Assembly (NCBI RefSeq): GCF_002156705.1
Contig: NZ_CP019893.1
Location: 1,364,001 to 1,428,000 of the forward strand
DNA length: 64,000 nt
DNA from: Natrarchaeobaculum aegyptiacum
GTDB taxonomy: Archaea; Halobacteriota; Halobacteria; Halobacteriales; Natrialbaceae
Reading direction: 5' to 3'
Part shown: positions 37,023 to 37,737 of the stretch, piece after piece
Layout: each line of letters begins with the position of its first letter
How positions within the stretch are numbered: the stretch's first letter is position 1
Notes under the pieces: model-generated
Seen by the model: the letters and a program-made list of their open reading frames with translations, nothing else
Told to the model about the DNA's origin: nothing
Database searches by the model: none
Translations under genes and position numbers: made by a program

Positions 37023-37150
37023 TGCGCCGACCGGGAGTCGAACCCGGGCTATGAGCTTGGGAAGCTCATGTCCTACCACTAGACTTCCGATGGACTCGCT
37101 CCGCTCGTCCATCGACCTTCGCCTCGCGACGCTCGGCTCAGCACCGGCGC
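37023..37150 (-). tRNA. tRNA-Gly(CCC) copy 1 interrupted by a 57-base insertion
   Basis: Identical in every tRNA base to the intact copy at 37309-37379, but the first nine bases (37142-37150) are split from the rest (37023-37084) by 57 bases at 37085-37141. The insertion is therefore between tRNA positions 9 and 10, after the acceptor stem. It contains an 8-bp hairpin (CGATGGAC/GTCCATCG). Without removal, the acceptor stem cannot pair locally. Either an unusual intron or a disrupted gene. Confidence 0.6.
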
Positions 37151-37165
37151 TGTTACGGTCGAAAA

Positions 37166-37293
37166 TGCGCCGACCGGGAGTCGAACCCGGGCTATGAGCT
37201 TGGGAAGCTCATGTCCTACCACTAGACTTCCGATGGACTCGCTCCGCTCGTCCATCGACCTTCGCCTCGCGACGCTCGGCTCAGCACCGGCGC
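37166..37293 (-). tRNA. tRNA-Gly(CCC) copy 2 interrupted by the same 57-base insertion
   Basis: Exact repeat of copy 1: exon-like parts at 37285-37293 and 37166-37227, insertion at 37228-37284. It is separated from copies 1 and 3 by an identical 15-base spacer. Confidence 0.6.
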
Positions 37294-37308
37294 TGTTACG
37301 GTCGAAAA

Positions 37309-37379
37309 TGCGCCGACCGGGAGTCGAACCCGGGCTATGAGCTTGGGAAGCTCATGTCCTACCACTAGACCACCGGCGC
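37309..37379 (-). tRNA. tRNA-Gly(CCC), intact
   Basis: 71 bases. Acceptor stem GCGCCGG pairs with the 3' strand apart from one G-U. The anticodon stem TGAGC/GCTCA carries the loop TTCCCAA, giving anticodon CCC. The T-arm is CCGGG-TTCGACT-CCCGG. CCA is not encoded. A TTTT just after the 3' end could stop transcription. Confidence 0.92.
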
Positions 37380-37737
37380 TCACTCACTTCGTTCGCTCGC
37401 GCTGAGGATCGCAACTCCTCCGGGGTTGCTCACCACCGGCACGCGTCGTCCTCCGGGGTTGCTCACCACCGGCACGCGTCGTCCTCCGGGGTTGCTCACC
37501 ACCGGCACGCGTCGTCCTCCGGGTCCGCTTCGTTCAGCGAGACACCGGGTTACTCGAGTAGTAGCCACCGCCGACACTTCAACGTAGCGCTCCGAGCGCG
37601 CCCGTCGCTCCCGTTCCGAACACCAGTGGAGGCGACTCACCACGAGATCCCGTCACTCGAGCCCCTGACCGAACGTCCGTCCACTTTTTCGGGCGAATGC
37701 GAGGCTATTAGGGCGGTGCGGCCGTACAGATCGGCAA
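37380..37737. other. intergenic region between tRNA-Gly and nadE
   Basis: 358 bases holding the 33-bp repeats at 37417-37523 and, near the right end, the presumed nadE promoter. No gene or obvious tRNA promoter box is seen. Confidence 0.6.
37417..37523. repeat. 33-bp direct repeats, 3.2 copies
   Basis: The unit starts CCTCCGGGGTTGCTCACCAC at 37417, 37450 and 37483, with a partial copy from 37516. The copies are contiguous and identical, with no spacers, and lie immediately upstream of the tRNA-Gly array. Confidence 0.9.

Follow-up and report, generated by a model that had tools for sequence, protein, structure and literature searches.

Interrupted tRNA-Gly(CCC) genes of Natrarchaeobaculum aegyptiacum are most likely damaged copies bearing a two-hairpin repeat, not intron-containing genes

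Introduction

Non-canonical tRNA introns occur in Crenarchaeota. In Haloferax, the tRNA splicing endonuclease has been reported to need a full hBHBh' motif (available portion of PMC7714728). Haloarchaea also carry short dispersed repeats, described in Haloquadratum as SMRs and PATEs (PMC3119063), and integrating elements can leave tRNA fragments behind, as at the tRNA-Thr of Caldiarchaeum (PMC3293823). The locus described here invites comparison with all three. We found no account of its insert, or of the X-hairpin-X'-spacer-X units described below, in the open-access literature searched, including the available portions of PMC7714728, PMC3119063, PMC4090602, PMC3293823 and PMC8371274.

The locus lies in a 64,000-nt stretch of the N. 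aegyptiacum genome (NZ_CP019893.1, positions 1,364,001 to 1,428,000), hereafter the window; its genome is referred to as G000. An initial annotation had recorded two interrupted tRNA-Gly(CCC) genes beside an intact one and had offered two explanations, a non-canonical intron or disrupted copies kept next to an intact gene. We favour the second. The bulge-helix-bulge (BHB) is incomplete and costly, the anticodon loops are altered in relatives and the insert resembles a dispersed haloarchaeal hairpin repeat; the interrupted copies are therefore most likely damaged tRNA copies and not introns.

Results

Sequence comparison, ARAGORN and Rfam each support the three tandem tRNA-Gly(CCC) genes first annotated at 37023-37379, which lie on the minus strand. 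Copy 3, transcribed first, is an intact gene of 71 nt (37309..37379; Rfam RF00005, 66.2 bits), followed by interrupted copies at 37293-37166 (copy 2) and 37150-37023 (copy 1). Copies 1 and 2 do not differ from each other and carry the same 57-base insertion (CTGAGC...CGGAA) after base 9; cutting out these 57 bases leaves exactly the intact gene, with all other tRNA bases the same, so the annotation was accurate on this point too. By sequence comparison, copy 2 consists of nucleotides 1-9 (GCGCCGGTG), here called the left arm X (37285..37293), the two-hairpin insert (37228..37284), and nucleotides 10-73, 62 nt that are the same as in the intact gene (37166..37227). The corresponding parts of copy 1 lie at 37142..37150, 37085..37141 and 37023..37084. 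The repeat model R2 (see below) scores the copy 2 insert at 83.3 bits, the sequence itself being among the 15 from which R2 was built. The boundary of the insert is unique because its first and last bases both differ from the base of the intact gene at that place. No target duplication surrounds it in the window. An acceptor piece followed after 45-70 nt by the D-stem occurs twice in the window, compared with none in 100 shuffles.

TRF describes the array as a perfect 143-bp tandem repeat of 2.4 copies (37023..37370, minus strand). In the single-contig genome of 3.93 Mb, the 143-nt unit has three matches, all at the array: one in each interrupted copy and one in the body of the intact gene. 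ARAGORN and the Rfam tRNA model report the interrupted copies as ordinary tRNA genes, reading each as a contiguous tRNA of 71-73 nt, with an Rfam score of 49 versus 66.2 bits. In this contiguous reading the acceptor strand is formed by the end of the insert and pairs poorly, with 5/7 acceptor pairs compared with 7/7 in the split reading (by eye). Upstream of the intact gene on the minus strand are a leader unit of the form X-hairpin-X' (37399..37442; model R1, 56.2 bits, the sequence itself being among R1's 29) and a perfect 33-bp tandem repeat, in 3.3 copies, of the front part of this unit (37416..37523). Farther upstream, AGCGCTACGTTGAAGTG (37575..37591) is a likely promoter of the tRNA unit; similar sequences occur upstream of tRNA-Gly(CCC) in several relatives.

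Comparison of the locus in related genomes, a check that the annotation had proposed, revealed that the interrupted arrangement recurs. A congener (G003) shares the window's 15-nt spacer, between one intact and one interrupted copy. The insert there likewise measures 57 nt, and in its second hairpin an A-U pair replaces G-C. In Natronobiforma cellulositropha (G085), the intact copy is followed downstream by a copy interrupted by 53 nt. Genome G040 retains a decayed remnant, in which a leader unit, the nine bases and most of the insert are followed by a deletion into the tRNA 3' end; R2 matches this remnant at 62.5 bits. In all of these genomes, as in that of the window, nadE adjoins the locus. 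A second congener, G001 (77% complete), carries the intact gene and leader units at the locus and no interrupted copy, and therefore loss or separate origin must be assumed; this speaks against great age or strict inheritance of the interrupted copy. Genome G002 (55% complete) offered no gene at which to judge interruption. Among 391 genomes of the class, a pattern for the right end of the interrupted copies (up to three mismatches) identified interrupted genes in G000, G003 and G085, and in the other 11 matching genomes it hit apparently intact genes.

We further noticed that in the genus of G040 (G037-G040) the sole full-length tRNA-Gly match to the gene has a UCC anticodon in 4/4 genomes. 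An intact tRNA-Gly(CCC) was not found in any of these four, where GGG may be read by the UCC tRNA.

Over 62 body positions, interrupted and intact copies differ at none in the window, two in G003 and four in G085. The unmutated bodies in the window's strain are the strongest point against decay there and alone would fit a working gene. Both changes in G003 fall in the anticodon loop and give CUC. This loop is TTCCCAA in the three intact copies, GTCTCAA in the interrupted copy of G003 and GTCCCAC in that of G085; the CCC anticodon is kept in the interrupted copies of the window and G085 and changed in G003, and so is not conserved across orthologous copies. Bodies within one genome share lineage-specific bases, which we read as gene conversion. 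The interrupted copy of G085 has a D-stem mismatch, is called tRNA-Ile by ARAGORN and is predicted to lose the D and anticodon arms in its lowest-energy fold. The predicted lowest-energy folds keep the cloverleaf and the two hairpins in G000 and G003, and acceptor pairing through the left arm is 7/7 in all three genomes (by eye). The interrupted copy most likely yields no translation-competent tRNA.

The annotation had seen no clear BHB. This is borne out in that the motif is incomplete and costly, but not in full, since a central helix can be written: a 4-bp helix (CCGG/UCGG) with 3-nt bulges fits at 9/10 in G000, G003 and G085, although it is absent from the lowest-energy fold. The central, exon-side and intron-side helices (H,h,h') measure (4,1,2), (4,1,5) and (4,1,2), respectively. 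The outer helices thus fall short, with h of 1 bp in all three; the h' of G003 (5 bp) alone would pass. Two control introns of the window's genome gave (4,6,4) for tRNA-Gln(UUG), whose site ranks first in its BHB scan, and (4,6,6) for tRNA-Met, whose site is the best of five cut positions tried. Sites with H=4 that score at least as well as 9/10 number 22 in G000, 3 in G003 and 14 in G085. Enforcing the motif at 9/10 costs 21.6, 19.4 and 24.8 kcal/mol in these genomes, compared with 5.1 (Gln) and 0.0 kcal/mol (Met) for the genuine introns. Among 20,000 shuffled inserts, H=4 arose at 9/10 in 2.3%, and together with h' of at least 2 in 0.23%, in shuffles that ignore the conservation of the right-end CGG in the repeat family. 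The central helix is weakened as evidence for an intron because it is built from this conserved CGG and the palindromic acceptor-strand CCGG.

Folded as RNA, the 57 nt form two hairpins (z -2.7; 4/200 shuffles as good). As DNA the insert is less structured (z -1.3), which counts against our preferred explanation. A search of the class genomes with the nine bases plus the insert gave matches at E<=0.01 in at least 162/391 genomes, many of them short; near full-length matches are located outside tRNA genes, as far as the displayed flanks tell. Among the matches listed, identity to the insert over query positions 11-66 is 91% and 89% in G414, and likeness is 86% on a Salinirubellus plasmid and 84% in G408 and G227. 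Model R2 was built from 15 of 20 listed repeats, a list that leaves off loci with only a partial repeat; L257, L260, L271, G085 and L269 were omitted for a different length or the lack of a clear first hairpin. It takes its structure from the window's own insert and is biased toward it. R2 matches 29/39 genomes at E<=0.01, including that of the window, in which its sole matches are the two tRNA copies plus a marginal one (E 0.001). Across the alignment of the 15 repeats, pairing is kept in 93% of 270 cells, and both sides are changed in 31 cells versus 9.1 in shuffled alignments. Such changes affect 10/18 pairs, in both hairpins (3/7 and 7/11), a number reached by 0/500 shuffles. Of 22 R2 matches in genome G118, the 16 copies examined (L325-L340) contain an insert-like two-hairpin motif as part of a larger repeat, which by eye is roughly 150 bp long.

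Units resembling the left part of the insert precede many intact genes. Among 47 intact-looking tRNA-Gly(CCC) genes (our own count, from 51 rows minus two interrupted genes, one decayed and one element-like), 25, including the window's, have one to three upstream units X-hairpin-X'-spacer-tRNA in which X is the tRNA's own first bases; the other 22 have none at up to two mismatches to tRNA 1-11. Where a variant acceptor and a unit occur together (G011, G020, G085, G093 and G302), X bears the same variant in all five genomes, and in some genomes with the common acceptor X is off by one base, for example in G000 and G029. Such units also precede tRNA-Gln(UUG), where X is that tRNA's own; the window's genome has two of these. 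In that genome the core unit pattern (up to three mismatches) is found only before Gln(UUG) and Gly(CCC). Of its 44 tRNA loci, those listed with their own first bases (12 nt or more) upstream are only Gln(UUG) and Leu(UAA), in the latter case within a longer duplication; a single mismatch in X kept Gly(CCC) off this list.

Some tRNA loci show further partial copies. In the window's genome (L153, about 1155-1257), a truncated duplicate covering the promoter region and the beginning of tRNA-Leu(UAA) lies about 285 nt upstream of that gene, and ARAGORN calls a tRNA-Gly(acc) there, at 1215-1296. On the minus strand of G029:C11 (L104), the good tRNA-Gly(CCC) gene is accompanied, about 1.1 kb away, by a second one that has decayed and has a leader unit of its own. 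Just downstream of the good gene, a 24-nt tRNA 3' fragment stands behind a hairpin.

A covariance model of the unit, R1, was made from 29 units (27 with a left arm within two mismatches of the tRNA and two from the Gln leader), and it recovers these by construction. Left-arm identity in its rows is partly a matter of selection because units were picked by left-arm match. Across the units, 63 cells are changed on both sides compared with 16.2 when shuffled. With stricter filters, R1 matches at least 93/125 genomes of the family, Natrialbaceae as judged from its named members. X is repeated downstream (at least 8/9) in 62/68 unit hits versus upstream in 4/68, and shuffled X in 1-3%. This test covered 68 of 83 hits, omitting ten in L155, L125, L110 and L111 and five weaker second hits in L222, L242 and L210. 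By site, the downstream X is present in 30/31 Gln leaders, 8/10 Gly, 1/1 Pro, 7/9 units lying antisense at tRNA-Ala 3' ends (X in both misses is cut by the 50-nt search length) and 16/17 other sites, most of which appear to be protein-coding-like DNA. Leader regulation was rejected as a general account, as units also lie antisense at tRNA-Ala and tRNA-Pro 3' ends and at sites where no tRNA was found.

The interrupted copies share the register of these units. Their left arm, tRNA 1-9, is followed by hairpin 1 in register (X, one base, TGAGC). Their right X is unequal to the left (CCATCGGAA versus GCGCCGGTG, 4/9), and X' and the right arm (CGATGGAC/GTCCATCG) pair with each other. In G085, the interrupted copy opens with 34 nt identical to the leader unit that precedes the intact gene; R1 recognises the initial 44 nt of this copy (42.2 bits) and three further units between the two genes. 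The distance from left arm to tRNA base 10 is 66 nt in G000 and G003 and 62 nt in G085. This is within the range of ordinary leaders, in which the nearest unit starts 53-68 nt before the tRNA, giving 62-77 nt with the nine bases. R2 responds weakly to ordinary leader units. Its matches in G003 (16.0 bits) and G085 (23.7 bits) both end exactly at base 9 of the intact tRNA, whose own first bases form the right arm; those in the leaders of the window and G001 (19.4 and 16.6 bits over 41 nt) do not end there.

Three other accounts of the arrangement were set aside. The idea that the right arm descends directly from tRNA 1-9 through paired substitutions gains little support from identities of 4/9 in G000 and 5/9 in G085. 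A leader unit and an insert as unrelated events were dropped as first choice, the left half of the interrupted G085 copy being equal to a leader unit. The order expected of a permuted tRNA (10-73, 15-nt spacer, 1-9) does exist, but it arises from the tandem array.

Discussion

On balance we think that copies 1 and 2 are probably duplicates of tRNA-Gly(CCC) whose own nucleotides 1-9 were lost to a two-hairpin repeat unit, without an intron, a reading that we hold with restrained confidence. Behind it stand the observed anatomy, its recurrence at the nadE-linked locus of G003, G085 and G040, the identity and register shared with leader units, the X repeats, the covariation of the two hairpins, the incomplete and costly BHB and the altered anticodon loops. 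The order of events, like the age, the gene conversion and the lack of function, we infer. A unit would have the form X-hairpin 1-X'-spacer-X, with X copying the end of a neighbouring tRNA gene, and the interrupted copy would be a leader unit fused to tRNA nucleotides 10-73. The left arm X would supply nucleotides 1-9, still matching the tRNA and restoring acceptor pairing across the 57 nt. The gene's own 1-9 and its partner X' would have been exchanged for another pair of the repeat family (CGATGGAC/GTCCATCG); this right-hand pair looks like those of dispersed repeat copies, and its right arm would sit in place of the gene's own 1-9. The interrupted copy, present in two genera and as a remnant in another, is probably old; it would have doubled recently in the window's strain, and gene conversion may have kept its body similar to the intact neighbour.

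Several observations count against such a fusion. The bodies in the window carry 0/62 mutations, all seven acceptor pairs form, and the cloverleaf is kept in the predicted folds of G000 and G003. The exchange of the right arm is only inferred, its identity to tRNA 1-9 being insufficient to establish descent, and the same end product results if a ready-made repeat is simply inserted at 9/10; on either account the copies would be damaged or repurposed, not introns. Plain insertion is the nearest rival: a two-hairpin mobile repeat would have entered an intact tRNA-Gly duplicate and turned it into a pseudogene. We consider it unlikely, yet worth serious attention. The insert does resemble the dispersed haloarchaeal repeats of G414, G408, G227 and the Salinirubellus plasmid, and among the matches listed (G000, G003 and G040 set aside) 10 of the 22 of at least 50 nt begin at its first or second base; others of the 22, however, start up to eight bases earlier, with X-like flank there. 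Insertion would also leave to chance the agreement in length and register with leader units, including the leader unit that forms the left half in G085, and no target duplication is seen in the window.

If the interrupted copies had instead been retained for a functional tRNA-like RNA that stays unspliced, with the hairpins adding a domain to it and a role as decoy or regulator but not as decoding tRNA, one could account for the 7/7 acceptor pairs formed through the left arm in three genomes, which hold even across the G3-C70 to A3-U70 difference of G085 (by eye), for the structured insert (z -2.7; 4/200 shuffles) and for its presence in two genera. Covariation of the arms is no proof of function because the left arms of leader units track the tRNA anyway, and the G085 copy, with its D-stem mismatch, its predicted fold lacking D and anticodon arms and its call as tRNA-Ile, the decayed copy of G040 and the lack of a copy in G001 make this improbable. 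We give still less credence to a non-canonical BHB intron at 9/10 that the tRNA splicing endonuclease would cut. Exact removal of the insert does restore the gene, a central helix is writable in all three genomes, the combination with h' of at least 2 is rare among shuffles (a point that also counts against our preferred explanation) and the intron-side helix reaches 5 bp in G003. Against this stand an exon-side helix of 1 bp throughout, an intron-side helix of 2 bp in G000 and G085, 22, 3 and 14 rival sites at least as good, a cost of 19.4-24.8 kcal/mol as opposed to 5.1 and 0.0 for genuine introns, shuffle statistics that overlook the family-conserved CGG near the right end, the altered anticodon loops of relatives and the full hBHBh' reported as required by the Haloferax endonuclease (available portion of PMC7714728). 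An assembly artefact, which the annotation had named as grounds for discarding the observation and which the perfection of the 143-bp repeat might suggest, is the least credible explanation, because diverged versions occur in G003, G085 and G040; only the copy number (two or one) in the window's strain could be wrong.

Returning to the loss of nucleotides 1-9 to a repeat unit, the interrupted copies are open to misreading as a new intron class and are better seen as the trace of a repeat family that copies tRNA ends. More speculatively, and with considerable doubt, a small haloarchaeal repeat element may settle at chosen sequences, often the ends of tRNA genes, with the flanking 7-12 nt copied at each site in both direct and inverted orientation. 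The inverted copy could be a base-pairing guide to the target or the record of a templated foldback, and the interrupted tRNA-Gly would be one product. If copying is confirmed, it becomes testable how so short an element matches each host tRNA on both of its arms, and there would be a route by which tRNA genes gain hairpins, lose their 5' end and become pseudogenes.

Separately, in genome G099 (L103, C1:1286500-1290500, about 1205-2452), a stretch of about 1.1 kb divides a tRNA-Gly(CCC) close to its anticodon. Within this stretch lies a complete tRNA-Gly-like gene whose anticodon, by eye, is CCC; the interruption is perhaps an integrated element carrying a replacement tRNA.

As in the archaeal BHB introns of Haloferax tRNA-Trp, -Met and -Gln, exact removal of the insert restores the tRNA, and a 4-bp central helix with two bulges can be written. 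The insert differs from them in its 1-bp exon-side helix, large energetic cost and own hairpins, as well as in its position at 9/10 and the anticodon drift in relatives. With the fragments left by integrating elements, such as at Caldiarchaeum tRNA-Thr (PMC3293823) and those of archaeal tyrosine recombinases (PMC8371274), both as described in the portions available, the locus shares partial tRNA copies beside an intact gene, whereas here the duplication covers the 5' 9-12 nt and comes with a hairpin and an inverted copy. The SMRs and PATEs of Haloquadratum, which we compared by description (available portion of PMC3119063), are like our repeats in being short, dispersed and non-coding, with inverted or palindromic parts, and for SMRs that portion describes no target duplication. 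SMRs measure 80-110 bp, whereas the units here are shorter, the nearest starting 53-68 nt before the tRNA, and, unlike SMRs and PATEs, bear a copy and an inverted copy of their flank, often at tRNA ends.
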